Shown here: positions 6,001-56,191 of the stretch, in pieces
Layout of the letters: the number at the start of each line of letters is the position of its first letter
Position numbering within the stretch: position 1 is the first letter of the stretch
Assembly: GCA_947494565.1 (NCBI GenBank)
Contig: CANLVG010000005.1
Coordinates: 186,001 to 250,000, forward strand
Length of the DNA stretch: 64,000 nt
Direction: 5' to 3'
From: an uncultured Flavobacteriaceae bacterium
Lineage (GTDB): Bacteria; Bacteroidota; Bacteroidia; Flavobacteriales; Flavobacteriaceae
Translations under genes and position numbers: made by a program
The notes under the pieces: generated by a model
Database searches by the model: none
Seen by the model: the letters and a program-made list of their open reading frames with translations, nothing else
What the model was told of the DNA's origin: nothing

Positions 6001-9000
6001 CTGCTTCCGGGGAAGTGGAGTTCGTCTCTTCGATGGTTGTGCGAAGCATATCCTCTAAGGTATTCTCATTGATTTCAGCTTTTTCGGAAACGCTAAGTTT
6101 TTTGTACCATTGTGATTTTTGTATGGCCTTTAATCCTGCTTGAATCACTTCTTGCGTAGTAGCGGCAGTCTTTACTGCCAAACGCATAGCCTTGACAGCA
6201 GTTCTTGCTACGGCAATAGGCAGACCGATACCCAAATTCTCGTCAGTGAACTTTTTAAGGTCGTTTTCAAGTCCTCCGAGGAAATCGTCGAGTTTTCGTA
6301 GGTTAGACTTTTCTGTTGGAGTGATTTTATTTAAGCTGTCCTTTGATTTAGAAAGGTATTCTTGGTATTCGTTTAAGTTTGCAGTTGTGTATTTTTCAAT
6401 AAATTTGGCGGCGTTTGATTTTCTAGTACTTCTACTTAAGTCTATAAAGTGTATTCCGCTTGGTTGATCGAAATAGAAATTATTCGATTTGCTTAAATCT
6501 AAGTCGATTTTGTTTTCCTCTAAATACTTTATGTCTTTAAAAAGCTGTTGTTTATTTGATTCACTCAACTCAATCTTTGTGTCGGAAACAAGAGGATATC
6601 CTTTAGCTAAGGTCATAACGGAATAAAAATGTCCATCGACGAAACCCAATTCTGTGTTTACATGAATATTGGAAGTTCCCTCGACTTCTGCGGGATTTAT
6701 TTCATGTAATAAAACAACGCCTTTTTTAATGGCGTGTGTATTATTGAAGTTAAAAACTTCAGTTCCATCTTTTTGACTTATATTATCTTTAAGATTTTCT
6801 TTTTTTAAAATATTAGTTCTGTTTTTAATAACATTTTTTTTTATAAAATCTATGTATTTTTCAATAGATACAATCGACGAACTTAAGAACAATGGACCCC
6901 TGCCCTCTTCTAATTGCATTTCGTTATTTAAGGCTTGAATTTTTTTCCTCAAATGACTAATAATCTCTTTTTTATTAGTAATTGAGGTTAGACGATTTTT
7001 TAAATCTTCTACATTTTTCGCTTGCGAACCTTTTGTAGTCTCTGGTCCACTATCTTCGCGTACTCCGGATCCTTCTGCGCTTTCTGAGCTATTTTCGCTC
7101 GTAGTCCCGCCCTCATTGCCGGGGTCAGCTTTGGGGTCTTCGATGGTTTCTTGGAAGGCTTGCTCTCTTTCATTTGATAAATTTACTAATTCTTCATCGG
7201 TTAAACTATCCAATGGCTCATATCTTGAGTCTTTGGTATTCTGCTGGTCAATGGCCATTTTGATATACCTATCATTGGCCGGAAGCCCTGTTAGCTTTGT
7301 GAAGGCTTCTTGCAGCGGTCTAATATCGTTATCACGCACCTCTTTATAGACGTCGTTCGCGCCGTTTTGATAGGTATCGATGTGGTCAACAATATCCTGT
7401 GGGGTGATTTCTATACCATAGTCCTCACTAAGTTCTTGGGCTATGGTATCGATGGACCTACCTTCTTTGGAGAAATAGGATTTGGCCATGCTGGCCCCGA
7501 TATTGTTCTTGTCACCGAAATTTATATAACTTTTACGGTCGATTTTGCCTCCGATATTTTCGGCAATAGCCTTTGTCTTGTAGTCTACTTGGTTTTCTAT
7601 AAACTCTTTGGTGTTTACGCTATTAAGGAGATTGGCGATTTCTGCCGGATTTTTGGACTCTTTGGCGATGATTTCGTTAACATCGGTTTTAGTATCCTCT
7701 GGTATTTTGGCTTCTTTCCCCTTGGTAAAATCAAAGTCATTTGCATATTTCTGTTGGATTTTCCTCCGTGTTGGAGCTGACGGTTCATTGCCCTTTGAAT
7801 CTTTTATATTGAGAGTACCATCCTTAAATTCAGCCGTATATTTTGGAGCGGTCTTAGAGTCACTTACGGAATAGGTTTTAACCGCTTCTTTACCTCCTTC
7901 AGGCTCAATGGGGGATTGTACTTCTTGTTGTTTATCGATGTTATCCGTAGGTCCAGGGTTTCCATCAACATCAGTATTTTCGGTCTGTGTTGTTTCATCT
8001 GATTTTAATTCACTCGAATTCGAGGGGTTTTCAGTGGTTGCATTTTTTGCATCAACTGGTTTTGATTTTTTAGGTTCTATCAGAATTGTTTTTGATTCTA
8101 CAAGTTCTTCAGCCGTTTTAGCTTTTTCTGCAAGCAACAGTTTTCTCGAGTCCTCCGACAGTTCAGGATTGTTCTGTATAGCATCATACTCGGTCTTGAG
8201 TTTGTCAAGTTGGCCCTCCAGCTCACCTAGTTTTTGCCTCTCTTCCTTGGAAAGGGACTTGAACTTATCGTATTCCGACTGGACTATGCCTTCCTTTTGA
8301 TTTGACAGGTTTTCTTTTGTCGCCCTCAATTGGTCCTTTAGGTTAGGGTCGATGTTCTTTTCAAGGTCGGCATCCAGATTGGCTATTTGCTCATCGATCG
8401 AAGAGACTTTTTTCTTGGTGTCACCGTCCATTACCTTATTGGCCCCTATAGTGGCAACTGAAATTCCACCTCCCATAATTCCCCCTATAAGCGCAGCATC
8501 GGCTACGTTTTTCCAGAAGTTCGCGGTAGTTATGGATAGGTCCTTATCTTTAAAAAAGTCGTCAGAAAGTTGTTGTGCTATTGTGGTAGCGGCTTCTGAT
8601 GTAGCTTCCATCCCCATCGATTTCAATGTGTTTTCAACGAACTTTTCGGAAAATTCCGAAGCCATTTTACTATTTCCCTTGAAAACACCTTTGAGCGGTT
8701 TCAACAAGCCGGCGGTCACCCTTTCAAAGACACCTTCGGCCGTACCGGTTACAATTGAATTTAGGATGGTATCCGAATCGAGACCTTCTCCCTCTCGCTC
8801 CAAGGATTCCTGTTTTTGTGAAGCGCTTCCCGCGCCAATGGCCAACAACCCACCAGGTGCAGCGGCCAACACCAATGAAGGTGCGCTACCGGCAATCCCA
8901 TTGGCTATACGTGCGGTCGCTTGCTCGATATTTCCACTGGTAATGTCATCCATGATATTCCCTTCGTACTGGATGGTCTTTTTGTTGATTTCCTCCGAAA

Positions 9001-19765: not shown

Positions 19766-20635
19766 TTACCAAGAGTTTATGCCCCAAGGACTTGATGAGT
19801 TATCGAATACCGTAATCTCTTGTTTAGGTGAATCGGCATATTGGTCGGCCACTACGACCGTGTTGAGCTGCGTGATGTTAAAATGGAGATTGTCCATCTT
19901 GGCAGTATGCAAAAGCGCTTTGTACCTATTCTGAAAATCCCTTTTGTCCTGAATTCTTACACTTCGTCTTAGTCTGACCGTTTCGTAATGCACATAGGCC
20001 ATGAGGACCTGTTTGAGGTTCTTATGGATACTTATTTCGGAGTCCGAAAGATTATGCATTTGAAGTCCGTCCGAAATGTATTCGATGACCACTTCTTTAT
20101 CTTCAAGGTCGGTACTGAATCCGATCCTGCCGCGTTGCTCATCTATTACATATTCCCCTTGTGCGACCTCTCCGGGACAGAAGGTATACTTGCGAGCGGG
20201 TTTGTTGTACAGATTGCTACTGTCCGCCATCATTATGGCACCATCGTTATCAAAAAGAAGCTCATAATCGCTATCCTGTAGATAACCGACAGCCGTTTGG
20301 ATATTATTGTTGGGCCGAAGGGCCTTAAGACGAAATTGGTCCGTTACCACGGAAATCCGGACAATATCGATAAAATCTTGTGGGAGGACGATAAATAATT
20401 TTGGTCCTACCGTAATCTCTGCGGCAAGTATCGTCTTTTTCACTTCGCGGTTGAGGACCTGGATGCCGTTCTTGGCTTTGGTCAAGAGTTTGCTCCTTGG
20501 AGTATTGGCCAAATAACTATCGGTATCGACAGTTTCCATCAAAAGTTCGTCGAGCACTTCTTTTAAAGTGATATAGGCGTACTTCCCATGTAGGCTTTCG
20601 TCTTCGTGATATGTCTGGGCAGTTTGGATGGGCAT
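19766..20635 (-). CDS. Head-tail connector/ring protein, 289 aa
   Basis: Contains the pattern KLFIVLPQDFIDIVRISVV followed by FRLKALRPNNN and, later, VVIEYISDGLQ, which I associate with ring/connector proteins that sit under the portal in crAss-like and related podoviruses. An alpha-helical C-terminal segment (YVHYETVRLRRSVRIQDK) is also typical. Forms part of the series capsid, head protein, two connectors, tail. It starts 2 bases after the previous gene. Confidence 0.6.
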   Translation of the reverse strand: MPIQTAQTYHEDESLHGKYAYITLKEVLDELLMETVDTDSYLANTPRSKLLTKAKNGIQVLNREVKKTILAAEITVGPKLFIVLPQDFIDIVRISVVTDQFRLKALRPNNNIQTAVGYLQDSDYELLFDNDGAIMMADSSNLYNKPARKYTFCPGEVAQGEYVIDEQRGRIGFSTDLEDKEVVIEYISDGLQMHNLSDSEISIHKNLKQVLMAYVHYETVRLRRSVRIQDKRDFQNRYKALLHTAKMDNLHFNITQLNTVVVADQYADSPKQEITVFDNSSSPWGINSW

Positions 20636-22938: not shown

Positions 22939-24273
22939 TTATGCGTAGTATCCCGCTCCGGTCCTAACGGCATGGAACTCGTTCGCACCGATGACCTGGT
23001 TCAAGAACTCGCTCTTGAAGTGGGTCGTCTGGATATCGAACTTATGAGCTGTACCACCTGGTCCGAAAAGCTTGATCTCCTTTTTGAAGTTCACTCCGGA
23101 TCCTTGACGGTAACGTGTCGATAGGTAGGGCTTGCTTACCGTGTTGCCGTTCTCCTGGGCGTACTTCGTTCCTGATGGAATGATCAAACAGGCCAATCCA
23201 CTGGCGCGGAACTTTTCCGCACCTAAAAGGCTAGGATCGTCCAAAAGGCTCCAAGGGGTGAAGTGGAAGGTGCAACCATCGATGTATACGGATTTGAAGC
23301 CTAACATCAGGGCCATATCCATACTGTTGTCGAAAGATCCGTAATTGGCACCTGTGGCATAGTGGGCGTTTACTCCTGACATCATTTTTCGAAGTTCCGC
23401 TCCTTGCTGGTGGTTGTGGAAAATATGGAACTCACGACAACCTCCTTGTTGCTTGGCCCGGAAGGCGACGGCTGAAAGGGCCTCGATATCGTCGATATAC
23501 TCATTTCCAACGTTACCCCTGGTCTCGATCTGGGGAAGCACCCCGATTACACCACGGGCGTTACCAGTGGTTTTCCGTTCATGGAAAATCTGGGTAAGTT
23601 CTACCATATTATCGAACATAGTGGAAGTACGCTCGATCTCATGATTGAACCAGCGAGGTCCGTCCGGAGTCTGTACCCATGATTTATGCGCCATATCCGA
23701 TACGCTTACGTTGTAATTCTGTTTCAGGATATGGGTGAAATTGTAATACGGGTTAGGGTTCCATCTTTTACTTCCAACGGCATCCGCACTTCCCTTTTCA
23801 TAGGAATTCGAGAAATCGCAGATTACGTCGACAACACCGCCAAATCCAAAAGCTCCACCGGCATCATTGGTGGCCTCGAAAATGAATTCGTCGGTAATTG
23901 CGGTAACAGTGGCCTGTCTCTCGATATCCCCATCCGACACCTTAACGGTATCACCTACTTTAAGGTTATGTTCGATAGGGGAAGTAAAAGTGGTGCCTAC
24001 CACGGCTACATCCGTAATGGTGTTGTGCAAACGGCCCTCTTCCATGTGCTCGATCTTGTCCGACTGGTAAGTGGATTCGTGACCGCAAATCTGAAGGAAA
24101 CCGGTAATTTTTCCCAATCCGTTGGCCATATGCAACTGAGGGATCAGTTCCGGCATGTACTGTTGGGCGTATGTGTATAGGTCTATAAAGTTATCGGGTC
24201 CCGCGACGACGTTGGCCGGCTGCGTGATGACCGAAAGACCACTTAAGTTGTTCTCTCTTAAATCAAAAGGCAT
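22939..24273 (-). CDS. Major capsid protein (HK97-fold, crAss-like type), 444 aa
   Basis: Typical length and position (after scaffold). Recognisable segments include the FTHILKQNYNVS strand, a long helix (RTSTMFDNMVELTQIFHE) followed by KTTGNARGVIGVLPQIETRGN, and later FRAKQQGGCREFHIFHN, the order I know from crAss-like and related podovirus capsids. Residues ~90-150 hold an inserted beta domain (VGDTVKVSDGD). Transcribed from the promoter at 25581-25610 together with the scaffold, with a terminator right after the stop. Confidence 0.75.
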   Translation of the reverse strand: MPFDLRENNLSGLSVITQPANVVAGPDNFIDLYTYAQQYMPELIPQLHMANGLGKITGFLQICGHESTYQSDKIEHMEEGRLHNTITDVAVVGTTFTSPIEHNLKVGDTVKVSDGDIERQATVTAITDEFIFEATNDAGGAFGFGGVVDVICDFSNSYEKGSADAVGSKRWNPNPYYNFTHILKQNYNVSVSDMAHKSWVQTPDGPRWFNHEIERTSTMFDNMVELTQIFHERKTTGNARGVIGVLPQIETRGNVGNEYIDDIEALSAVAFRAKQQGGCREFHIFHNHQQGAELRKMMSGVNAHYATGANYGSFDNSMDMALMLGFKSVYIDGCTFHFTPWSLLDDPSLLGAEKFRASGLACLIIPSGTKYAQENGNTVSKPYLSTRYRQGSGVNFKKEIKLFGPGGTAHKFDIQTTHFKSEFLNQVIGANEFHAVRTGAGYYA

Positions 24274-25651: not shown

Positions 25652-28084
25652 TTAGGCCAATAGCTCTTCCAAATCGAATTTTTTCTTAAAATCGAAAGCT
25701 CCCAAATCCTTTTGTCGTTGCTCTATCAATTGGCTTTGACGCGTCGATTGATGGTCCACACGATCGTCCTTGGCCTTCTCTTTGAACTGGGTCAAATGGA
25801 TATCCCTTAAGGATTTTATCTTTTCCAAATAAACATCCCTTTGGAATTGGGCCTCTTTTTCCGGAGCGGTGATCTGTTGCATTGCCAGAGCCTCTTCAAG
25901 ACGTAATTGGCTCATATTCATTTCCTCTTGCATTTTTAACTGTGAAGCTGCCTGTTTCAATTGTAGGTCCGCTTGCATCTTGGCTTGGGCGGCTTGGGCA
26001 TTGGATTGGGACTGTAGCTTTTGCTTGTATTCGTTCTCGCGCATCTGTTCCTTGATCTTCCTTCTTCGGATGAATCGCATATATTCGCTGGCCTGTTTGG
26101 TATTTACCCTTGCGATACGCATAATTTCCGCTTTTTCGGATACATCGACGGTACCTTCTTTTAAAGATATATTGAGGTCTTCTCGAAGTTCGTCAAGCTC
26201 GGCCTTTGAGGGTACCATTTCGATACTGTAACCGAATTCATGGAGGTGTCTGTGTTTTAGGCTTTCGATTGCATCGATATTGTGTTTGCCGACGGCATTT
26301 CGATACATTTTTTGTAAATGCCTCGCCTCTGGTAGTTTGAATATACCCTTGACCCTGGCACTAATGGTCTCACAGACCCGTTTGTCCCATGCGACCGCGG
26401 CATCCACTATATGTTTGGTTACCACATTTCCTGCCAACTGCATCATCTGGTTCACTCCGACAAGGGAATCCTTGCCCAAACTGCCGTCCATGGCGGGGTT
26501 TATACCGGTCGTTTCCCTTATGATATTGTAGTAGTGGGCCCAAACGTTCAATAACGGGGCCAATGCGGAACCTTGCTGGTTCGTGGCCGGTCTTGCACTC
26601 TGCCCTCTTTGGATACCTCCCTCGTCGCCCAAATCAATGGTCTTTTCTAGGATTACACCTTTGACATTGAGTATGGAAAGGGCCGTTTTCCAATTGCTCT
26701 GCTTGCTTTCCCCTTCAACATCGGGGTTGAGTTCGGCAAGCTGATCAAGGTTGATTACCGTGAGATCGGGCTTGAGTTCCAACATTAAATGCTGGATCTT
26801 GAAATCGGCCATGATCAGTTTATTGACAATCGGCACTATATTGCTCAAGAAGGATTTCAACTTGTTTTTATAAATATTAGTGGATTGTGCAATGAAAGGA
26901 GGTAGCACCCTGTCCATATCATCCTTGGCCAGGTTCTCGCTTTCTTTCCAACCCCAGATATATTCGTTGCTGCCTACGATATACGAACCTTCGTACCAAG
27001 TATCCATTCGTTTGGATAGACGACTGTTTTCTTGACCTTCCGGAACCTTGAAATTGCTGTCCCGACGGGCGACCTTAACGGTTTTTTCCTTTTTATAGAG
27101 ATATTTTTTAAACACGATTTCCTTGTCGCCCTTGACGCAAAAGCGCATTACGTGCACTTTGTATTCCAATACCCTGTTGATATCAACGATATCAAGATTA
27201 AGAGTGTTCTTTTGGTTGTTTCCGGCATACATTTTGGCGATTTTCCTCAAGTGAAGGTCGTCCCAACCGGTTTCCCTTCGGATATCGTTTATGGTGATTT
27301 CCTCCACCACGAAATGATAAAATGCATCCTGGAAATCGTTTCTTTCGACATAACTATGTCCGTAGGATTCAGGATCCACACTGTCGATCATGACACCATT
27401 GTTCGGGTCGGTATAGACCCTTGCCACCATCAGGTCGTTGACAACCAGGTCCTTATCCCCTTGGTCCTTGATATGCTGCCAACTACTGATATTCTTGACG
27501 AAGTTTATCATGATTTCCTCGGCGATTTCCTGTTTGGGGCGTTCCTTGATTTCGCTATAAAGGCTCAGTTCCTCTTCGTCTTCCGGAACGAAACCTTTGG
27601 GCAAAAGGTCTATACCTTGGAGTTCCTTGGCCTTTTCGAGCATTTTCTTGGCATACATGTTCTTTTTGTGCTCCAAGACCTTTTTTCGTTTCTGCTCCAA
27701 TGTAAAACGATCGGCCGATCTAATATCCAAACGGTAATTTTCCTCGCCGATGCCATTGATGACACGGTTCGTGAATTTCTCCGCGTAATTGGTTATATGC
27801 CAATCCATATTCAGATAGGAATTGTCCTCTTCCTGTCTGGCCATGATTGTCTTATAATAGGCAATATCCTGTTCGCCCCTATTGAAAATCCGAAGTTCTC
27901 TAATGCGCTGATGTCGTTGGGCGAACAGGGAGTTTGTGGTGATCATCCCGCCGCCGAACCATTCCTGCTGGATGGAGGTAGCGACTTTTAAAGCATATTG
28001 GTCCGTAAGTTTTTCCTCGTTCGGGGCCAAAGGGTCCGGTAATCCGCTGATGTCCAATGGTTTTAATTCTGGGGCATTTTTCAT
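25652..28084 (-). CDS. Portal protein (crAss-like type), 810 aa
   Basis: The portal forms the dodecameric ring through which DNA is packaged. Length (~800 aa), position after the large terminase and features fit crAss-like portals: helical N-terminus with RIRELRIFNRGEQDIAYY, the YLNMDWHITNYAEKFTNRVI segment, a central VVNDLMVARVYTDP strand, and a long Gln/Glu/Met-rich C-terminal helix (residues ~690-790) resembling a portal barrel. It starts 2 bases after the terminase stop. Confidence 0.75.
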   Translation of the reverse strand: MKNAPELKPLDISGLPDPLAPNEEKLTDQYALKVATSIQQEWFGGGMITTNSLFAQRHQRIRELRIFNRGEQDIAYYKTIMARQEEDNSYLNMDWHITNYAEKFTNRVINGIGEENYRLDIRSADRFTLEQKRKKVLEHKKNMYAKKMLEKAKELQGIDLLPKGFVPEDEEELSLYSEIKERPKQEIAEEIMINFVKNISSWQHIKDQGDKDLVVNDLMVARVYTDPNNGVMIDSVDPESYGHSYVERNDFQDAFYHFVVEEITINDIRRETGWDDLHLRKIAKMYAGNNQKNTLNLDIVDINRVLEYKVHVMRFCVKGDKEIVFKKYLYKKEKTVKVARRDSNFKVPEGQENSRLSKRMDTWYEGSYIVGSNEYIWGWKESENLAKDDMDRVLPPFIAQSTNIYKNKLKSFLSNIVPIVNKLIMADFKIQHLMLELKPDLTVINLDQLAELNPDVEGESKQSNWKTALSILNVKGVILEKTIDLGDEGGIQRGQSARPATNQQGSALAPLLNVWAHYYNIIRETTGINPAMDGSLGKDSLVGVNQMMQLAGNVVTKHIVDAAVAWDKRVCETISARVKGIFKLPEARHLQKMYRNAVGKHNIDAIESLKHRHLHEFGYSIEMVPSKAELDELREDLNISLKEGTVDVSEKAEIMRIARVNTKQASEYMRFIRRRKIKEQMRENEYKQKLQSQSNAQAAQAKMQADLQLKQAASQLKMQEEMNMSQLRLEEALAMQQITAPEKEAQFQRDVYLEKIKSLRDIHLTQFKEKAKDDRVDHQSTRQSQLIEQRQKDLGAFDFKKKFDLEELLA

Positions 28085-28086
28085 GA

Positions 28087-30408
28087 TCAGGCTACTTTAG
28101 AGATTATACCGGAGTTGTCGAAGCGCTGGAACGGATTGACCGCCGGTTTTGATTTGGTCTGTTTTTTTACGTGTTTTTGGTTTCCTACCAAGGATAGTGA
28201 GAAGCCGATATAGGCATCGTATTTTGTCCTTTTTTCGGTATCGACGTCCTTTAATTGTAATAACGTGCGAGTAAAGGGCATGTCGCCCATTTGGCCCAAT
28301 TGTCTGTTGTTATTGTCCCTGGCGACCCCGACATAGTCCTGTACATAGGCTTCGGTTGCATAGAACTGGCCCTCACCGATTTTACTGTCCTGTTGCGGGG
28401 CCCCGCCGAATTCGATTTCCGTAGGGCTCAATTGGTTGAATTTTTTGAAGGGATTGTTCATGCTGAAATGCCGGTAACCCCTATCCTTGACATACGCCAG
28501 GAATCTTTCGTTGGAAAGTTCCGCTAAAAAGGGTATAGAAAAGTAGACCGATATCATGATGACCTCTTCAAAGAATATCTCGACCTTTTTTGGTCTATCG
28601 ATATACTCAACTATCATCGTCTTGTTCGGAAGTTCATCGCAGGTATGTGTTTTAGTGGTCAAGATTATGGCACCTTTCGAACCACGTCCGTCCGCATTTT
28701 TGCTACGGTTATAGGGGTCGACCCCAAAGGTGCCTATGTGACCGGCAATGGGTGCTTTTGCCAATATGCCGTTGCGGCTTACAAGTTCGTTCTGGTTGCG
28801 GAACTGCTCTGGGGGATGACAGCCTTTTTTGATGAAGAACCTGCCTTTCGGATCCGGGGTCCAAAGCACTATGGTATCCTTGATGCCGTCCTTCCACCTG
28901 ACATTACCTCGCTCAAGGTCTTCGTTTCCGTTGAAATCGTTTTCGTTCTTGAAGTCATCCTCCAGTTCATAGGTGTTATGTTCGATTTGCTCCTGAATAT
29001 GGATTAGATTGAATTCACACTCATCGCTTTCATCGCGAAACGCATCCTTAATGGTCTCGGGGTTTTGACGCATGAACTCATTTAGACCTTCGGGGTCGTT
29101 CTGCAGCGCATCGATGGAATTTTTAAGGAAGGATAACGTTCCATAATCGACCATTTCGCCTTGATCGGTCATAATGGGCTTTTCAGGGTCTTCCACTATG
29201 GAAAAGCCATACTGGTCGAACATACCTTCCAAACAGTATTTTGTAGGTATGAACAACCTATAAAGGCCCGATTTGGTGCGACCGTTCAAATCTCGGTCGG
29301 TACAGTCACTTTGGTCCCAGACCTTTTTATATTCCGCGCCTCCTTTTTTAAGCGCGTTAACGGTGGAAACGACCATGGCCTTTCCTTTAATCATAATACC
29401 TTTTCTATGCGACGTCTTGACCACTTCCCAGTATTTGGAGAAGGGAACATCCTTTGGCCATTTACCGGCTTCATCGATCAGCGAACGAAAGATTGCATCA
29501 CCGTCCATCGCGTTACCTTCGGTATTGTGCCATTCGACCATGGTTCCAAGACCATTTCCCATGGCCACGGAGTCACCGACGGATTTTCTTTTGGTGGCCT
29601 CTTCAAGGTTTAGTTTTTTCTTGGGATTGTTGGTGCCGTCCCAAACGGGTCTGAAGAAAGAAGGTAATCTCTTGAACCCCTTAACGAAACGGCCGAATAT
29701 CTTGCCGGCATCATCACCTTTTTTGGAAATCAATCCAAGTAGTTTATCCTCATGATTGGTGGCCGAATTGCTGATTTCGAATAGCGCCATTAAGGAGGCT
29801 CCCATACGACGGTTCTTGACGTATTGCATTCCAAAACATCTGGGGTCTGCTTTACAGGCTTCCCAAAAAATCATGAGTTCGTTCTGTATGACCCTGAAAT
29901 CCGGATAATCCTCGATTTCCCTGAACCATTTGATGCCGAACCAATACGTGCCCGTAAGGTACATGGGTACGCCCTTGATGAATATCCAAATTCCTTTTTC
30001 CCTTTTCTCGTACTGCCTATCGATATAGGTCTTATGCTTTTGGAACAGGGTCTTCATATAGGAATCTATCTGCTCCTGTTTTTGTTGCCGGGTGCCTGTG
30101 TACTTTGAAGTGACCAGGTCTATGGATTCATAGGTAAGTTCATTGGGCATTTCATCATCCGTTCTATCCCATTTTTGTTGTAATGGATGGATGTCGTAAT
30201 TGATGATATCCCGGTCCTTTGGTTTTTCGGGCAAACCGATGTTCAGCCCCATTATATTGTATACCTCACCGAGTGTACCGTCCTTGGAGATTACTACGGT
30301 ATCTATATCGGGGTGATAGCCATAGGTCCAGTTTCCCAGCTTGCTTTTTTGTTTTTTCTTGGTAGCTGAGATAGGTATATCGACTAATTTACCTAAGTAC
30401 TGGATCAT
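28087..30408 (-). CDS. terL: Terminase large subunit, 773 aa
   Basis: DNA-packaging motor. Near residue 205, VKNRRMGASLMALFE is a variant Walker A; near 312, FRSLIDEAGKW is the Walker B with catalytic Glu; MVVSTVNA near 350 fits the coupling motif. The C-terminal RNase H-like nuclease begins near 560 with GTFGVDPYNRSK, with GAIILTTKT and further acidic residues later. Size and motif spelling match TerL of crAss-like phages. It overlaps the preceding small gene by 1 base. No small terminase is recognised; the 115-aa upstream protein is a positional candidate. Confidence 0.85.
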   Translation of the reverse strand: MIQYLGKLVDIPISATKKKQKSKLGNWTYGYHPDIDTVVISKDGTLGEVYNIMGLNIGLPEKPKDRDIINYDIHPLQQKWDRTDDEMPNELTYESIDLVTSKYTGTRQQKQEQIDSYMKTLFQKHKTYIDRQYEKREKGIWIFIKGVPMYLTGTYWFGIKWFREIEDYPDFRVIQNELMIFWEACKADPRCFGMQYVKNRRMGASLMALFEISNSATNHEDKLLGLISKKGDDAGKIFGRFVKGFKRLPSFFRPVWDGTNNPKKKLNLEEATKRKSVGDSVAMGNGLGTMVEWHNTEGNAMDGDAIFRSLIDEAGKWPKDVPFSKYWEVVKTSHRKGIMIKGKAMVVSTVNALKKGGAEYKKVWDQSDCTDRDLNGRTKSGLYRLFIPTKYCLEGMFDQYGFSIVEDPEKPIMTDQGEMVDYGTLSFLKNSIDALQNDPEGLNEFMRQNPETIKDAFRDESDECEFNLIHIQEQIEHNTYELEDDFKNENDFNGNEDLERGNVRWKDGIKDTIVLWTPDPKGRFFIKKGCHPPEQFRNQNELVSRNGILAKAPIAGHIGTFGVDPYNRSKNADGRGSKGAIILTTKTHTCDELPNKTMIVEYIDRPKKVEIFFEEVIMISVYFSIPFLAELSNERFLAYVKDRGYRHFSMNNPFKKFNQLSPTEIEFGGAPQQDSKIGEGQFYATEAYVQDYVGVARDNNNRQLGQMGDMPFTRTLLQLKDVDTEKRTKYDAYIGFSLSLVGNQKHVKKQTKSKPAVNPFQRFDNSGIISKVA

Positions 30409-48829: not shown

Positions 48830-49759
48830 ATGACAACGGAAACAAAGAACATTTACAAGAAGTATTGTCCAAATGTATTCGTGGCAAAATGTCCACAGGA
48901 ACACAAAAAAAGTGATGTAATCATTTTAACTACCAAATACGGTAAAGAGCATGAATGTATCGTGTTCAATTTAGTCGGTAAGTCCAACGACGGACATTTT
49001 TTCTATTCGATAGTACGGGCCGACGGTTTCAACGCTCAGGAAAGGGCCAAAGCTAAGGCCGAAAAACTTCATGGTTATGCCGGTAACGCGGATAAAAGGA
49101 GTGACGAGGCCTATAATTCAAGAGCCACCAAGCACGAGTTAGAATTTATGTCACTAGGGGAGCCTATTAAGGTTGGGCACCATAGCGAGAAGAGACACCG
49201 CAAGTTGTTCGAGAAGTACGACCGGAAAATGCGCAAGAGTGTTGAAGAAGGCGAAAAAGCGGAGGAATACAGAAGACGTGCGGAGTACTGGGAGGCTAAG
49301 ACCAATGATATCAATTTGTCGATGCCGGAGAGTTTAGGGTATTATGAGTTCAAATTGGAAGAGGCAAAGAAGCACCACCAATACTTAAAGGATAATCCTA
49401 GTGCGCGGGAACATAGCTATTCATTGACCTATGCAAAGAAGGCGGTCAACGAAACCGCTAAGAATCTTGATTTGGCCGTCAAATTGTGGGGGAGTGCCGA
49501 AGAAATCGAGCAAATCAATAAGGAGAAGGAGCAGGAAGCGCGGGCAAAAGTCGTGAAAACTTCTAAGGTGGATGAGCTGATCAATAAATATGGCGGGTTT
49601 TTCTTCTTTGGTTCTGATGGGAAGGCCTTTAAAGAGAAGTACGACGCTATTTTAAAGTCCGGGCATGTTATTGAGGGTGAGAAGGTCCGACACGTCGCCC
49701 ACGGTCTTTATTTGCCTTCAAAAAATGTTGATGCATACCTAAAAGAAATGAAGTTATGA
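48830..49759 (+). CDS. DUF3560-family protein, 309 aa
   Basis: The centre carries the DUF3560 signature: GEPIKVGHHSEKRHRKLFEK followed by a helical region with KAEEYRRRAEYWEAKTND. An N-terminal beta region and a C-terminal ~50-residue domain (INKYGGFFFFGSDGKAFKEK) frame a long coiled coil. DUF3560 proteins are common in plasmids and phages next to DNA-modification genes; their role is unknown. It overlaps the next small gene by 4 bases. Confidence 0.75.
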   Translation: MTTETKNIYKKYCPNVFVAKCPQEHKKSDVIILTTKYGKEHECIVFNLVGKSNDGHFFYSIVRADGFNAQERAKAKAEKLHGYAGNADKRSDEAYNSRATKHELEFMSLGEPIKVGHHSEKRHRKLFEKYDRKMRKSVEEGEKAEEYRRRAEYWEAKTNDINLSMPESLGYYEFKLEEAKKHHQYLKDNPSAREHSYSLTYAKKAVNETAKNLDLAVKLWGSAEEIEQINKEKEQEARAKVVKTSKVDELINKYGGFFFFGSDGKAFKEKYDAILKSGHVIEGEKVRHVAHGLYLPSKNVDAYLKEMKL

Positions 49760-49878
49760 CGGATATACAGATTTTAGAGCATCTAATGTACGGGCATCAT
49801 TTAGAGCCAAGAGAACTGGAAAAGGCCGAAAGAATACTTTTCGAATTAAATAGATCATTAAAACATCGTAAAAATTGA
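49756..49878 (+). CDS. Small helical protein, 40 aa
   Basis: ATG overlaps the DUF3560 stop (ATGA). Product MTDIQILEHLMYGHHLEPRE followed by a Lys/Arg-rich helix. It ends 4 bases before the methylase ATG, so it belongs to the operon. Unknown function. Confidence 0.55.
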   Translation: MTDIQILEHLMYGHHLEPRELEKAERILFELNRSLKHRKN

Positions 49879-49882
49879 AATC

Positions 49883-50773
49883 ATGGCTAAGATATCAAAG
49901 AGACTATTGAACAAGCATAACGAAGCGGTGAATATGCTAAAAAAGGAAAAACTAAATTTTAACGAACGCCAATTTGTTTTTGATAATTATCATGAAGGAG
50001 CGGGTAAAATGAACAATTTGATCAGCGCACATTTTACACCTTATCAAATTGCTAAGTCTATGACTTTTAACATCGCTTACACAGATTGTTTTATTGATTT
50101 ATGTGCAGGAATAGGAATATTATCGTATGCCTTATTGAGACAAGAGGAAATGAGCTTCAATAAAAAGTTATTCGGTATCTGTATTGAAAGAAGCACCGAG
50201 TATTACGAAGCAGGGAAAAAATTACTACCTGAGTTTCATTGGATCAACGGTGATTGTTTTGACCCCAAAGTTATTGAACAGGTAAGGGATTTAATGAAGG
50301 ATAAAAAATTCAGCGTTATCTCAAATCCGCCTTATGGAAAACAAGTTAAGTCGAATACCGAAGACCTCTTAAGATATACTGGTAGTAATTTCGAACTAAA
50401 GGCCATCGAGTGGGGCGCGATGATAGGAGCATTCGACGGAGCATTTTTAATACCTCAAAATGCGGCGAATTTTAGGCTAAGCGGAAGAGAAGCAAAATAT
50501 AAACCTGTCTATGACGAAAATTACAAAACTAAAGAATACTTAAAATTTGTTGCTCAGACCGGTTTAGAAATGAAGGCCAACAATGGATTTTCCACAGATT
50601 TAATTGAGGGTGAGGAATTTGGCCCGACTTGGAAAGATGTAACAATTACAACCGAAATAGCTTGTGTTGATTACGATGAATACAACTATACTCCAATTAA
50701 TCAGCTTACAAAAAAAGAAAAGACTTCCGAACCATTGGAAAAGGAAGCAATTCAAACTAGTCTGTTTAACTAA
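49883..50773 (+). CDS. N6-adenine DNA methyltransferase-like protein, 296 aa
   Basis: SAM-binding motif DLCAGIGILSYALL near residue 73 and catalytic NPPY (SNPPYGKQ) near 152 identify an amino-methyltransferase. A GDCFDP segment and INGDC acidic residue fit motif IV/III surroundings. No target-recognition or restriction subunit follows, so it is an orphan methylase that probably protects phage DNA from host restriction or modulates expression. Confidence 0.8.
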   Translation: MAKISKRLLNKHNEAVNMLKKEKLNFNERQFVFDNYHEGAGKMNNLISAHFTPYQIAKSMTFNIAYTDCFIDLCAGIGILSYALLRQEEMSFNKKLFGICIERSTEYYEAGKKLLPEFHWINGDCFDPKVIEQVRDLMKDKKFSVISNPPYGKQVKSNTEDLLRYTGSNFELKAIEWGAMIGAFDGAFLIPQNAANFRLSGREAKYKPVYDENYKTKEYLKFVAQTGLEMKANNGFSTDLIEGEEFGPTWKDVTITTEIACVDYDEYNYTPINQLTKKEKTSEPLEKEAIQTSLFN

Positions 50774-50783
50774 AAAAAACCCG

Positions 50784-50839
50784 TTCGTTGTCAGCCCCGA
50801 AAGCTATGCGAGTAGGGGCGAGAGCGGACATAAAACGAA
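50784..50839 (+). ncRNA. Structured RNA candidate in the 5' leader of the 50845 gene
   Basis: Stacked helices can form: TTCGT/ACGAA (50784-50788 with 50835-50839), TGTC/GACA (50789-50792 with 50827-50830) and GCCCC/GGGGC (50794-50798 with 50815-50819), with a 16-base loop GAAAGCTATGCGAGTA and internal loops GAGAGCG and TAAA. The many paired bases in a 56-base gap suggest a genuine element; class unknown. Confidence 0.4.
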
Positions 50840-50844
50840 TCATT

Positions 50845-51126
50845 ATGAAATTTCAAGGAACAAAAGGAGAATGGGCAGTATCAGCTCAAGCGGATGTAAT
50901 ACAAATAGTTACCGCTAATCTAATCATAGGGGAGGTTTATGATAACGCTTCACGAAAAATTGATAAAGATACCTGCCTAAACAATGCGAGACTTATGGCA
51001 TCCGCTCCGGTATTGCTTAAAGCATTGGAAAGCATTAGGGGTATTGAGGCCCATATCAATGACAATCAAATGAAATCGCTATTTCAAAAGACAGTTTATC
51101 CAGCAATAGAAAAAGCAGTAAAATGA
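50845..51126 (+). CDS. Conserved phage protein with NARLMASAP motif, 93 aa
   Basis: I choose the ATG at 50845 (MKFQGTKGEW), just after the structured leader. The protein has a short beta domain (QIVTANLIIGEVYDN) and the C-terminal NARLMASAPVLLKALE helix, a motif common in small Bacteroidota- and other phage proteins. It overlaps the next gene by 4 bases. Unknown function. Confidence 0.6.
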   Translation: MKFQGTKGEWAVSAQADVIQIVTANLIIGEVYDNASRKIDKDTCLNNARLMASAPVLLKALESIRGIEAHINDNQMKSLFQKTVYPAIEKAVK

Positions 51127-51341
51127 AAACAGAAGTAAAATTTATAGTTCAAGCACTGATAATATTTTTGGCCTTGACAGCCTATGACATTTTAGTGCCA
51201 AGGATCCATGATATAGAGCATATCCAGAACGTTGACGAGATGCAGCCGACACCGGAGGAAATATACATTTTCACAGATGACGCGAAGTATCTTTTCGATG
51301 GTGAGAAATTGGAGTACATAAGCGAAATACCTAACGATTGA
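51123..51341 (+). CDS. Membrane-anchored small protein, 72 aa
   Basis: Residues ~7-23 (IVQALIIFLALTAYDIL) form one membrane helix; the acidic C-terminal 45 residues (EEIYIFTDDAKYLFDG) are probably exposed outside or in the periplasm. No known family. Tightly coupled on both sides. Confidence 0.55.
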   Translation: MKTEVKFIVQALIIFLALTAYDILVPRIHDIEHIQNVDEMQPTPEEIYIFTDDAKYLFDGEKLEYISEIPND

Positions 51342-51344
51342 GTT

Positions 51345-51446
51345 ATGGAAGCTATGACGGTAATAAGTATAGTTTTCGGTCTGATCGGCCTTGTACTATT
51401 GATATGGGTACTGATTATTTTACATAATGAAAAGAAAGACGATTGA
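51345..51446 (+). CDS. Tiny membrane protein, 33 aa
   Basis: MEAMTVISIVFGLIGLVLLI then WVLIILHNEKKDD: almost all a single membrane helix with a charged tail. Starts 3 bases after the previous stop. Small membrane peptides of this kind occur in many phage early regions. An 18-codon frame follows at 51450-51506. Confidence 0.5.
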   Translation: MEAMTVISIVFGLIGLVLLIWVLIILHNEKKDD

Positions 51447-51449
51447 GTT

Positions 51450-51506
51450 ATGAAAAACGATAATACAAGAGTACGGCAGCTATTGAACCTCATCGATACT
51501 ATATAA
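51450..51506 (+). CDS. Very short ORF, 18 aa
   Basis: MKNDNTRVRQLLNLIDTI, 3 bases after the previous stop and just before the structured leader at 51533. Too short to distinguish a real peptide from a leader ORF; kept because the spacing is regular. Confidence 0.25.
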   Translation: MKNDNTRVRQLLNLIDTI

Positions 51507-51532
51507 GAATCCCATCAATTTGAATTAACAAC

Positions 51533-51605
51533 AGCGGTTCCCTTGGCACATTATAGATTAGTAGGTGTTTGGTTTGGTTTTTTATTAATCGCCGGGGGAA
51601 CTGCT
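51533..51605 (+). ncRNA. Long stem-loop RNA in the 5' leader of the 51620 gene
   Basis: AGCGGTTCCC (51533-51542) pairs with GGGAACTGCT (51596-51605) over 10 bp with one G-U pair; inside, GGC/GCC (51545-51547 with 51591-51593) and GATTA/TAATC (51556-51560 with 51586-51590) extend the stem. The loop is T/G-rich. It ends 14 bases before the ATG and could control translation or message processing. Confidence 0.45.
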
Positions 51606-51619
51606 TAAAAAGGAATAAA

Positions 51620-52018
51620 ATGAAAGAATTAGTAGAAAGCATCAAGCAATATTTGAGTATCAAAAATGAAATTTCACAAATACAATCTATTGTCGTGCCC
51701 GAATTTCCAAAAACACAAATTTCGTACACTATAAAGGAGTGGAACGATTATATCGTGAATAAGCAAGGGTATGATAAAGCGGTAAACTTAAAAGGAGATA
51801 AGCTAAAAGAACTATCAAATCAACAGTCAGATCTTAAAGTGTCTATTATCGGTAGCTTACCAAAGCGCAATACTTGGTTTATACTTAAAGAAAAAGATTT
51901 TCACTATGCAGTAGGTTCTAGATCGAATGATTGGCCAACTAGCCCCGGCGACTTGTTATTGATTGAAAACCCTGTACGTGAGGAACTCCAAGAAATAAAA
52001 CACCAAGTAATAAACTAA
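51620..52018 (+). CDS. Hypothetical early protein, 132 aa
   Basis: ATG at 51620 with AAGGAATAAA spacing is preferred over an upstream start. Coiled-coil-like N-terminus (ELVESIKQYLSIKNEIS) and a C-terminal alpha/beta portion with DFHYAVGSRSNDWPTSPGDLL. No recognised domain. Its stop (52016-52018) abuts stem II of the hammerhead ribozyme. Confidence 0.6.
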   Translation: MKELVESIKQYLSIKNEISQIQSIVVPEFPKTQISYTIKEWNDYIVNKQGYDKAVNLKGDKLKELSNQQSDLKVSIIGSLPKRNTWFILKEKDFHYAVGSRSNDWPTSPGDLLLIENPVREELQEIKHQVIN

Positions 52019-52083
52019 TTGATCGAAACGCCCTTAACAGGGTGTCATGCGCTGGCGGTTAGGGCGCATCTGATGAGACCGCA
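52019..52083 (+). ncRNA. Type II hammerhead ribozyme
   Basis: All conserved core residues are present: GAAA (52025-52028), stem III ACGCCC/GGGTGT (52028-52033 with 52040-52045, loop TTAACA), the GUC cleavage triplet ending at C52046, stem I ATGCGC/GCGCAT (52047-52052 with 52064-52069, 11-base loop) and CTGATGA (52070-52076). Stem II is open-ended, G52077-C52024, A-T, a C-A mismatch, C-G, then G-T. Self-cleavage is expected between 52046 and 52047, splitting the early transcript between two genes. Type II hammerheads are known from bacteria and phages. The weak stem II is the main caveat. Confidence 0.8.
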
Positions 52084-52119
52084 GGGAAAGAATCTAATAT
52101 TAACTAAAATCATTTAACG

Positions 52120-52200
52120 ATGGAAAAAGAGAGTATTGAGGACTACGTCTTCATTTTGGAACTGAACGATGTATTAACTGAAATCGGTATCGACTTATGA
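52120..52200 (+). CDS. Tiny acidic protein, 26 aa
   Basis: First gene downstream of the hammerhead. Product MEKESIEDYVFILELNDVLT plus six residues, mostly acidic. Its TGA overlaps the next ATG by 4 bases (ATGA). Unknown function. Confidence 0.45.
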   Translation: MEKESIEDYVFILELNDVLTEIGIDL

Positions 52201-52334
52201 GAACTCCGCAATTAGTACCGGATTGGACACGGCAGAAAAAGAACCTTGTAACGGGGTTGATCGTTAACCGCCATAATGCGGAGGACAGCAGAAAAACGTA
52301 TAAACGACTAAAGGCCAAGAAAAATGGAGAATAG
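52197..52334 (+). CDS. Small basic protein, 45 aa
   Basis: Strongly basic C-terminal half (DSRKTYKRLKAKKNGE) suggests nucleic-acid binding. Overlaps the preceding gene by 4 bases and the next by 11, which supports a real, coupled gene. No family. Confidence 0.5.
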   Translation: MRTPQLVPDWTRQKKNLVTGLIVNRHNAEDSRKTYKRLKAKKNGE

Positions 52335-52860
52335 ATTTTTTACTATTACGACCCACGATAACGAGCAGCAATTTAATATCGGTACTATATCGGCTAAGGA
52401 CTATAATACCTTGCTAGAAGCTATTAAAAAGCCCCTAGAGCAGCATTTTGATGGTAGTCTGGTAAGCACTGGACTAAGTCCGGAAAGCTATGATATGCTA
52501 GTTAGTAAATCGGGGCAGCGATTCCCGTTCAAAATTGAGGTTGAAGATATTGACGGGGATTCGTTGCGCGATTTCTTTTGTCTTAGTCAAACTTGTTTAT
52601 ACCAAACGGAAAAATTCCCGAATGGTTTCGACTCTTGGCAAGAGACGCATTTTGAAATCTGCCAAGAAATTGCAAATCAATTCTTAACGGATTCAAGACC
52701 TGAAGGACGTGTAATGCAAGCACATGAAACGGGAGGTCATGGTTCTTTATACGAATTGGCAAAAGAAATGACGGACAAATTCGAGAACCTTCACAAGGAC
52801 AGACTGTGGGACGGTGAGTTTTTCGAAGAGATTGAATTGTTCATTGAATCGGAACTATGA
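52324..52860 (+). CDS. Hypothetical acidic early protein, 178 aa
   Basis: Mixed alpha/beta, acidic, without membrane segments. Contains HETGGHGSLYELAKEMTDKF, reminiscent of small phage proteins of unknown function, and an acidic end (EFFEEIELFIESEL). The acidity is compatible with an inhibitor or DNA-mimic role, but there is no direct evidence. Overlaps the next gene by 4 bases. Confidence 0.55.
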   Translation: MENRFFTITTHDNEQQFNIGTISAKDYNTLLEAIKKPLEQHFDGSLVSTGLSPESYDMLVSKSGQRFPFKIEVEDIDGDSLRDFFCLSQTCLYQTEKFPNGFDSWQETHFEICQEIANQFLTDSRPEGRVMQAHETGGHGSLYELAKEMTDKFENLHKDRLWDGEFFEEIELFIESEL

Positions 52861-52937
52861 AAACCCCGAGTAAAAAGGATGTAGCGTACTGGGGCATCAT
52901 TATCATTTTGATGCTCGCAGTACTTAGTTTAATTTAA
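52857..52937 (+). CDS. Tiny membrane protein, 26 aa
   Basis: MKTPSKKDVAYWGIIIILML plus six residues: a basic start and one membrane helix. ATG overlaps the previous stop. Third single-helix membrane peptide of this operon; function unknown. Confidence 0.45.
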   Translation: MKTPSKKDVAYWGIIIILMLAVLSLI

Positions 52938-52947
52938 ACCTCAAGTT

Positions 52948-53097
52948 ATGTTTACAGCAATGGAATTGATACCGGTAAAAACCGATATGAACTATATCAA
53001 GATTATCAATGGCCGATGGCATTTGAATTTTAAGCCGTTTAAGGAAATGACACTTAACGAGCGGAATACATTGGCCGAGAAAATCAAAGAATCCTAG
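52948..53097 (+). CDS. Small hypothetical protein, 49 aa
   Basis: Soluble, with NGRWHLNFKPFKEMTLNERN; begins 10 bases after the previous stop and ends 3 bases before the HTH gene. No motif. Likely real because of regular spacing. Confidence 0.5.
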   Translation: MFTAMELIPVKTDMNYIKIINGRWHLNFKPFKEMTLNERNTLAEKIKES

Positions 53098-53100
53098 AAA

Positions 53101-53331
53101 ATGGACGCAATTGAAATACAGAACACGGATCATCTTAAGGTATTGGAGCTACTTACCCAGATAAAGAAGAAGCGACAACGATTGGGTATTACCCAAGAAA
53201 CGTTGGCCGAAATGATAGGTATGGATCGTAGCCATTACTCCAAGATAGAAAAAGGAAAGAAACCAGGTGTAACGCTATGGTTTATTATTAGGCTTGTAAA
53301 TGCCATGAATATGGAGCTTATTATTAAATGA
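53101..53331 (+). CDS. XRE-family HTH protein (Cro-like), 76 aa
   Basis: Classic helix-turn-helix: RLGITQETLAEMIGMDRSHY then SKIEKGKKPGVTLWF. As a one-domain XRE protein at the end of the rightward operon, it may repress lysogeny genes, in the manner of Cro. A strong terminator follows. Confidence 0.8.
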   Translation: MDAIEIQNTDHLKVLELLTQIKKKRQRLGITQETLAEMIGMDRSHYSKIEKGKKPGVTLWFIIRLVNAMNMELIIK

Positions 53332-54152: not shown

Positions 54153-54902
54153 TTAATTGCAGACCGGGTCTACCCTTAGAATTTCGGAACCGTCGAATAC
54201 TCCATGTAGTCCGTAAATAAGATTGCCGTTACTGAAAGCATGAAAGTCCTGTTCGTTCACTCCTTTTGGTATCAAGAATTCATAATAACCCAGTTCTTCC
54301 ACTTGGTATTCGGTTATTACCTGACCATCGATCTCAAAGGTTATCCTATCGACGCAGGGAGCTTGGATATTGACCCAAAAACTCTCCAACTCCATAGTTT
54401 CTATGCCTGTACGGATTTCGGCATCCGCTGGCGGGTCGAATCGCTTTGCGCAGAAAACGGTGCCGTTAATGGTCAGATCATCTTGGACCGATATAGGAAA
54501 AGGAACTATAATATCGGCAAACCCGACTACTTTCTTATCCTCTTCGGAGGGTACCGCATACAGTGTATTATTGCCGTCCGTTAATAGGATTTCGATAACC
54601 TGATAATCCCCTACCGGCAAATCCATTTCTTCGATAGTGGTAATAACACCTTCGTTTGAGATATTTATTTTTGATGTCTTTCTCCATACCGCATCATTGA
54701 CGTCCTGAAAGGCCATTTCGACCTGTGTAGGAGTACCTTCGGAGCAATCGGGAACGAAAGTCTTTGATGTTAATGTCGATGGTATGGCCCCATTGAAATC
54801 GATATAAGCGAACTCCTTTAATCGTAATGGGTCGTCTTTCGAACAGCTTGCCATTATGGCCACTATGATAAGGACTAATAGTAAAATGATCGATTTTTTC
54901 AT
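54153..54902 (-). CDS. Lipoprotein, 249 aa
   Basis: Signal with lipobox MASC (Cys20), followed by a beta-rich mature domain of ~230 residues with repeats of IDFNGAIPST-type strands and acidic patches. It overlaps the integrase gene by 4 bases (ATGA), so it is translated with it. No enzymatic motif. As a lysogeny-region lipoprotein it may be exposed on the outer membrane, for example in exclusion of related phages. Confidence 0.65.
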   Translation of the reverse strand: MKKSIILLLVLIIVAIMASCSKDDPLRLKEFAYIDFNGAIPSTLTSKTFVPDCSEGTPTQVEMAFQDVNDAVWRKTSKINISNEGVITTIEEMDLPVGDYQVIEILLTDGNNTLYAVPSEEDKKVVGFADIIVPFPISVQDDLTINGTVFCAKRFDPPADAEIRTGIETMELESFWVNIQAPCVDRITFEIDGQVITEYQVEELGYYEFLIPKGVNEQDFHAFSNGNLIYGLHGVFDGSEILRVDPVCN

Positions 54903-56191
54903 TGTTGACTTGTTTTGAAATTACTATACTTTTTATCCCATGCCTTCTTGAGGTTATCGGCACTTTGCTGCTTTGTCTTTTTTACGTAATGTCTCATCAT
55001 TTCCTGATTTGCCCAGCCGCCCAGTGTTGTTAGGTCGCTATCGGGGATTACTCCGTAAAGATTGGTTGTAAAGCTTCTTCGACAAGCATGGGAGGATATA
55101 AGTTTGTATTTCGGGTAATCCCCTTCAATGGCCCTTTTTTTGAAACCATCGTATAATCTACCCCTCATTATATTGTCGATATCCGCCAACTTACAGATTG
55201 TCTTGATATGTTTATTGAAGTAGGCATCGTTGTATTTGGGAGGAAGGAACCCACCACGTTTTTTGAGTATAGATTTTACATGGGGATGTAACGGCACCAC
55301 TACCCAAGAACCCGTTTTGGTCGTCTTGATGCGAATATAACCATCTTTTATGTGGTCGACATCGAGTTGATGGTTAAAATCTGAAATCCTTAACCCTGAC
55401 CATAGGCCGATAATGGCATTGTCCCTGATACTTTCCAATTTAATGTCACCGGATAGGTCAAGGCCGAATACCCGATTGATTTCGTCCTCGCTCAATACAG
55501 GGTCGATTATTTCCTCACCTTTTGAGACATACACCCTATCATTGTACGAGTCGGATGTCTTTACGCCTTCGGTCTCGGCCCTATGAAGGAAGAACCTCAG
55601 CCTACCGATATGTCTTTTAATGGTATTCTCGGCATAACCTTCTACATCCTCCAACCAAGTGACGAATTTATCTATAAGCAACGAATCGATAGATTTTATC
55701 GTTAGCTTCTTTCCGCTGGAGAACCTGCGCCACATCTGAAGGAAGGACTCATATTGACTGATAGCACGTTTTGAAAGGAATTTGTTCTTACCGGTTTTCC
55801 ATATAGGGGCTTTGTTTTCCAACCACCATTCGGCGAATTGTAGGTAATAGATAAGATGGGGCTCTATTTTTCCTTTTTCCTCTTGAACTGGCCTACCGTA
55901 GTACTCTTTTACGGTCTTTTCGAGCCACGGCTTATTGATTACCTCACCGAATCTATATGCGTCGTTATATGCCTCCAGGACATGTAGCTTTAGTTTCTCC
56001 AAGTCCAGGTGCTTCTTGTCACGGTCTTTTATGGCCGATACGTTCTTATAGTTTGAAGCTTTGGGATCCCAGTGGTCGGGATCGACCAATAGGCCGGTCT
56101 TGCCCGAAACATCTATATTTCCGTGGTAGAACCTGATATGTATGGTAGAGGGGTTTTGCTTGCCCCTAACAAGTAGCTTAATTTTCGCCAT
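54899..56191 (-). CDS. Tyrosine-type integrase, 430 aa
   Basis: Catalyses site-specific integration and excision. N-terminal arm-binding region (residues ~1-55), a SAM-like core-binding domain (~120-210), then the catalytic domain: SGLRISD (Arg, ~264), TTKTGSW (Lys, ~292), HACRRSF (His and Arg, ~367), GGW (Trp, ~390) and MMRHYVKK (nucleophilic Tyr, ~401). All active-site residues are intact. It lies 870 bases from attR and has a 22-bp palindrome just upstream. Confidence 0.9.
   Translation of the reverse strand: MAKIKLLVRGKQNPSTIHIRFYHGNIDVSGKTGLLVDPDHWDPKASNYKNVSAIKDRDKKHLDLEKLKLHVLEAYNDAYRFGEVINKPWLEKTVKEYYGRPVQEEKGKIEPHLIYYLQFAEWWLENKAPIWKTGKNKFLSKRAISQYESFLQMWRRFSSGKKLTIKSIDSLLIDKFVTWLEDVEGYAENTIKRHIGRLRFFLHRAETEGVKTSDSYNDRVYVSKGEEIIDPVLSEDEINRVFGLDLSGDIKLESIRDNAIIGLWSGLRISDFNHQLDVDHIKDGYIRIKTTKTGSWVVVPLHPHVKSILKKRGGFLPPKYNDAYFNKHIKTICKLADIDNIMRGRLYDGFKKRAIEGDYPKYKLISSHACRRSFTTNLYGVIPDSDLTTLGGWANQEMMRHYVKKTKQQSADNLKKAWDKKYSNFKTSQQ

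Follow-up and report, generated by a model that had tools for sequence, protein, structure and literature searches.

The closest described relatives of the ribozyme reported here are the type II hammerheads (Rfam RF02276; Perreault et al. 2011, PMC3088659). According to the main text of that paper, type II hammerheads occur in prophages and may have a 2-bp stem II and a pseudoknot between loop I and the 3' tail, the latter being common in the class but not universal. Three tandem arrangements cleaved during in vitro transcription and one set cleaved inside E. coli, and 4 of 18 consensus-matching candidates were inactive in vitro. The same text also proposes a processing step that turns long transcripts of phages into shorter mRNAs. 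According to passages of a later paper (PMC10085705, 2023), why bacterial hammerhead and twister ribozymes show their gene associations is, biologically, still unknown.

The motif at 52023-52082 (plus strand) of the window, which is the whole 64,000-nucleotide stretch of DNA analysed here, adds one member to this established class. It shares with the published ribozymes (main text of PMC3088659) the circular order, the core, the 2-bp stem II, a possible pseudoknot and an intergenic prophage site. It differs from RF02276 in scoring under the gathering cutoff of that family, and R1, a model built from its viral-contig relatives, matches only its own genome among 395 of the class. Six annotated phage records, namely D3112 (AY394005), Spike (MK144667) and Chromohalobacter, Alteromonadaceae, Pelagibaca and Rhodovulum phages, carry ribozymes of the same class between annotated genes. 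In these records GAAA follows an annotated stop codon by 2-3 nt, whereas the spacer in the window is 6 nt, and the annotated neighbour genes are unlike those of the window.

Anatomy of the ribozyme and its place in the prophage

The ribozyme consists of the following elements, with core positions given in the hammerhead numbering scheme.

52023-52082, plus strand: type II hammerhead ribozyme, whole motif with stem II and pseudoknot tail
52023-52024, plus strand: 5' strand of stem II, UC, partner of 52077-52078 (GA)
52025-52028, plus strand: core GAAA (G12 A13 A14 A15.1), read from the sequence
52028-52045, plus strand: stem III hairpin, 7 pairs including A15.1-U16.1, loop 52035-52038 (UAAC)
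52044-52046, plus strand: cleavage triplet GUC, predicted cut 52046/52047, after H17, from established hammerhead chemistry
52047-52069, plus strand: stem I hairpin, 52047-52053 with 52063-52069, loop 52054-52062
52055-52059, plus strand: predicted pseudoknot, loop I strand GCGGU, complementary to 52078-52082
52070-52076, plus strand: core CUGAUGA, read from the sequence
52077-52078, plus strand: 3' strand of stem II, GA
52078-52082, plus strand: predicted pseudoknot, 3' tail strand ACCGC, with 52078 common to stem II

Structurally, the plus strand follows the type II order, consisting of UC, GAAA, stem III hairpin, GUC, stem I hairpin, CUGAUGA and GACCGC, and the initial annotation had placed GAAA, stem III, GUC, stem I and CTGATGA correctly in this circular order. 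Three helices surround the core (7 pairs in stem III, 7 in stem I and 2 in stem II); stems I and III are closed by loops and stem II is open. The features of the hammerhead class are observed directly: the CUGANGA and GAAA cores, A52028-U52045 as the A15.1-U16.1 pair, and GUC as the NUH triplet. Stem III is formed by A52028-U52045, C52029-G52044, G52030-U52043, C52031-G52042, C52032-G52041, C52033-G52040 and U52034-A52039. It had been described as a 6-bp stem; the hairpin stands, and the count is 7 pairs with A15.1-U16.1 and one G-U pair included. The perfect 6-bp stem I that had been described is present as six Watson-Crick pairs (52047-52052 with 52064-52069), to which a U52053-G52063 wobble is added. 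Stem II comprises two pairs only, C52024-G52077 and U52023-A52078; this short helix and the pseudoknot potential between loop I and the 3' tail had been overlooked. The identity as a type II hammerhead is borne out by the agreement of three lines of evidence: the Rfam model, covariation among relatives, and a control with a structural descriptor (in order GAAA, stem III, UH, stem I and CUGANGA, each of the two stems having 5 pairs or more, together with a 10.1/11.1 pair).

The surrounding genes support the prophage setting, as terminase, portal, structural and integrase families are all found in the window. The gene before the ribozyme ends at 52018; behind the ribozyme, a run of small ORFs that overlap one another begins at 52120.

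19766-20635, minus strand: structural protein
22939-24273, minus strand: structural protein
25652-28084, minus strand: portal
28087-30408, minus strand: terminase
51620-52018, plus strand: upstream gene of 132 aa, taking ATG 51620 as the start (ORF as listed 51569-52018), stop UAA 52016-52018
52120-52200, plus strand: small ORF of 26 aa downstream, which overlaps its successor by ATGA
52197-52334, plus strand: downstream ORF of 45 aa that overlaps its successor; the codon score does not decide between frames
52324-52860, plus strand: downstream gene, 178 aa, phrog_34395 (unknown function), E 2e-16
54899-56191: integrase

The plus-strand cluster at 48830-53331 encodes a DUF3560 protein, a methyltransferase-like protein, proteins of unknown family and an HTH gene. 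The DUF3560, methyltransferase-like and HTH genes, opposite in strand to the structural genes, suggest an early operon. The codon score of the upstream gene is modest (0.184 in frame versus 0.078 and -0.085), and this gene has no PHROG or Pfam match at E<=0.001 and no confirmed relative in the phage collection or the genome contigs. For the 26-aa ORF, the in-frame codon score is the highest of its three forward frames, on 26 codons only, and the 45-aa ORF has no PHROG or Pfam match. The 178-aa gene was found in its own genome alone among 98 relatives; two viral loci carry relatives of it and two carry relatives of the methyltransferase-like gene. When four viral flanks were compared by blast with annotated phages, one of the four had a match. 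Promoter-like sites numbered 12, compared with 15.3 in shuffled sequence.

We consider it probable that the motif is a self-cleaving type II hammerhead of the prophage plus-strand cluster which cuts the message between genes. What the analysis shows directly is the sequence, its fold, the family covariation and the gene context. Upon transcription of the cluster, the RNA would fold and self-cleave at the C52046/A52047 junction; both the cleavage and its end groups follow from established hammerhead chemistry. The upstream message would end just 3' of the stem III hairpin, 28 nt past the stop codon, with a 2',3'-cyclic phosphate, and the stem I hairpin would form the very start of the downstream message, which would carry a 5'-hydroxyl. 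One long transcript would become two, each new end carrying a hairpin, and the amounts and lifetimes of the halves could differ. We infer that the ribozyme would be expressed and cut in the cell, that the hairpins would protect the new ends, and that operon processing would be its use. Message cutting between prophage genes is the likely use and the one with the best support, and it agrees with what the main text of PMC3088659 proposes.

A hammerhead of another type is found near a related gene. In the viral loci L024-L027, Rfam at E<=0.5 gave no hammerhead, yet the descriptor finds a type I hammerhead in L025 (at 6508, plus strand), located after a homologue of the gene at 52324-52860. An ORF at 6249-6521 lies between them, reads through CUGAUGA and terminates in loop II. 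The two ribozymes are alike in belonging to a self-cleaving class, in residing in a phage module with this shared gene and in being tied to a stop codon. The L025 ribozyme is open at stem I and lies downstream of the shared gene, whereas that of the window lies upstream.

Position of the ribozyme relative to the upstream stop codon

In the window, 4 nt separate the stop codon at 52016-52018 from stem II and 6 nt separate it from GAAA. This stop codon had been described as directly abutting stem II; the closeness holds, and with a real gap of 4 nt the wording is loose. Following this one ribozyme exposed a positional trend, with type II hammerheads starting at a stop codon (cluster-median spacer to GAAA of 1-7 nt) in 96 of 144 upstream-protein clusters.

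The type II set comprises 206 distinct ribozymes passing the descriptor, the window included, and 185 of them have an upstream ORF, defined as one of 60 aa or more whose end lies from -150 to +70 nt relative to the core. Between stop and GAAA, the spacer measures 1-7 nt in 129 of the 185 (2 nt in 51 and 3 nt in 31), 8-36 nt in 26 and at least 40 nt in 21, and nine ORFs end inside or beyond the ribozyme. UGA, UAA and UAG serve as upstream stop in 63, 62 and 60 cases, respectively. Of the 161 type II relatives that have an upstream ORF nearby, 156 also have an ORF start codon within 150 nt downstream.

Type I hammerheads behave in a comparable manner. An upstream ORF is present in 155 of 178; CUGAUGA follows its stop immediately in 24 of the 155, and in 18 of the 155 the stop is the first UGA of the core CUGAUGA itself (for example L163, L174 and L181). 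A stop abutment specific to type II was rejected, because type I also shows it. The viral contig L181 carries five type I hammerheads, with the stop right before CUGAUGA in four and inside it in one. Among 31 type III candidates, 24 have an ORF and one of these is close, a set too small to serve as a firm control.

The placement was further compared with a null in which the total slack of each gap was kept and the ribozyme was placed uniformly, with minimal spacers chosen and start codons crudely called. Spacers of at most 7 nt were seen in 126 of 156 type II cases, versus 81.9 (sd 5.0) predicted, and in 111 of 139 type I cases, versus 77.2 (sd 5.0) predicted. In the same 201 contigs, terminator-like hairpins lie within 7 nt after a stop in 10 of 84 cases. 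The corresponding figure for type II ribozymes, taken at the outer end of their open stem, is 147 of 185, and overlapping ORFs are counted in both.

Named genome records, searched with a narrower pattern, gave 13 matches, 11 of them with a 7-pair stem III. In two of these 11, stem I is unbroken for only 1-2 pairs, and in six a long-ORF stop lies 2-5 nt before GAAA. In seven annotated phage records, the annotated stop precedes GAAA by 2-3 nt in six, including the known phage D3112, and by 19 nt in one; the seven are not independent, because two share a genus and others have like neighbours. Four of the seven passed the scripted stem test, and D3112, Spike and the Pelagibaca phage were read by eye. 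Streptomyces phage phiScoe1 (L414) carries two tandem type II motifs between annotated genes, the second of them read by eye. In Rhodovulum phage RS1 (L412), at 950, the annotated downstream gene starts at an AUG inside CUGAUGA.

The placement behind a stop codon is a strong trend across the family and is loose in the window itself. On positional grounds, the trend may reflect gating by ribosomes, protection of the message end or simple packing. It hints at a possible link between self-cutting and protein synthesis that is simple and testable. In a gated arrangement, a ribosome ending at UAA 52016-52018 would, by the reach of the footprint of a terminating ribosome, cover stem II and GAAA and prevent folding, so that cleavage would occur chiefly under weak translation of the upstream gene or once its translation is over. 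The short spacers of type II ribozymes and of their cluster medians, the excess over uniform placement, the different behaviour of terminator-like hairpins and the type I stops at or within CUGAUGA would all fit such gating. However, abutment would also be expected from phages that merely pack the ribozyme in after the stop or favour a short 3' end; 56 of the 185 type II spacers fall outside 1-7 nt, and the gap to GAAA in the window is 6 nt and not the modal 2 nt. We regard gating in the window as a tentative and rather unlikely reading. Its general form is put forward with equal reserve: phage type I and type II hammerheads may have their 5' edge built onto the upstream stop, such that a terminating ribosome would hold the ribozyme open and cleavage would report the end or absence of translation. 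If true, this rule would mean that many phage ribozymes behind different genes share a single function.

We found no earlier report of the stop-codon trend in the literature searched, most subscription papers and supplements being beyond its reach. The main text of PMC3088659 does not discuss it; 'codon' occurs there twice, and words beginning with 'ribosome' or 'translation' do not occur.

Covariation, model scores and occurrence

Relatives were fetched from viral contigs with the pattern GAAAC-N14-GUC-N22/23-CUGAUGAG, which matched at least 120 stretches, with 80 loci among the matches listed. The window and the 80 loci listed gave 86 pattern matches; in 83 of these, stem III reaches 5 or more pairs and stem I 4 or more. 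Leaving out the three with failing stems, rows near a contig end and rows more than 85% identical to a kept row, alignment A1 comprises 52 rows, the window and 51 viral-contig relatives from the matches listed. GAAA is invariant in A1, but was set by the fetch pattern. Across the 16 hammerhead pairs, 97.7% of 832 cells are paired versus 58.9% in shuffles, the percentages of stems I and III being inflated because both stems were selected for pairing. Both sides changed in 286 cells versus 88.5 in shuffles, and the covariation score is 0.932 versus 0.192 in shuffles and no more than 0.170 when partners are slid. Two-sided change occurs in 13 of the 16 pairs, a count no greater than in shuffles (13.0).

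Within stem II, the pattern fixed only the G after CUGAUGA. Both stem II pair positions are nevertheless paired in all 52 rows, and the second pair varies between GC (26), UA (18), CG (7) and AU (1). A pseudoknot of at least 5 bp can form in 34 of the 52 rows, compared with means of 8.3 for shuffled tails and 11.4 for tails dealt among the sequences, and with 14 rows for reversed tails. In the window the predicted pseudoknot has 5 bp, and at least 5 bp arises in 17% of shuffles, which is not significant alone.

Model R1 was built from alignment A2, consisting of 45 relatives with the window left out. It matches the window at 52021-52086 with 49.7 bits (E 3.5e-12), a score that is partly circular because the relatives were fetched by 16 fixed core bases present in the window. 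Across the genome the E value is 3.0e-10 and the next match has 18 bits. The Rfam score is without that circularity. The covariance-model match called for in the initial annotation is found, with RF02276 (Hammerhead_II) aligning to 52021-52090 at 30.7 bits and E 1.2e-4 (cmscan, permissive filters, 251 nt); the score stays below the gathering score of 37 bits, and no Rfam family attains its own within the window. A gathering score is a curation threshold, not a chemical definition. The sole other Rfam match on those 251 nt is a snoRNA family at E 1.4. Over the 5.39-Mb genome, 52021-52090 is the best of three RF02276 matches at E<=10 (E 6.1e-4), the next having 21.2 bits. Among 14 control genomes, none matches at E<=0.01 and 10 match at E<=10, and weaker genome matches at E<=10 are meaningless because of the latter. 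The descriptor has a single hit in the window and no hit across 300 dinucleotide shuffles (38.4 Mb, both strands); relaxed to 4-pair stems, it finds two across the shuffles. The folding free energy is ordinary (z -0.26 and z -0.97) and uninformative.

Occurrence in related genomes bears on whether the ribozyme might be a passive or decaying passenger, competent now or once, and without effect on prophage gene expression. It is a single copy in its genome; RF02276 at E<=0.01 matches one of 249 genomes of the family, its own, and none of the other 248, and R1 at E<=0.001 matches none of the other 394 of the 395 genomes of the class. The prophage, moreover, may be inactive. The core bases and the stems, even the weak 2-bp stem II, are nevertheless intact, and the intergenic placement is like that of many relatives. 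Such a passenger appears doubtful to us, somewhat more so than gating by ribosomes. As DNA, the ribozyme region has no match in 58 relatives besides its own genome and none in the phage collection.

A chance resemblance, in which two hairpins fit the core by accident and never cut, is very improbable, since the sub-gathering Rfam score and the inactivity of some hammerhead-like sequences (main text of PMC3088659) stand against the absence of the motif from 300 shuffles, the genome E value of 6.1e-4 and the structural agreement with 51 viral-contig relatives.

A further observation concerns the upstream gene: a 7-nt segment at the end of the upstream gene (51969-51975) is perfectly complementary to the 3' side of stem III (52037-52043). 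This pairing could compete with folding; an attenuator based on it was set aside, as the complementarity is possibly due to chance.

Within the phylum, RF02276 at E<=0.01 matches nine of 395 genomes, its own included, and one of the nine exceeds the gathering cutoff. Among the eight others, the descriptor accepts L028 and L029, which carry well-formed type II hammerheads of 37.6 and 35.5 bits, respectively; that of L029, likewise under the 37-bit gathering score, lies directly behind a stop codon, and that of L028 does not. The viral contig L018 carries two type II hammerheads above the gathering score, at 362-423 and 914-971 on the minus strand, about 0.5 kb apart.
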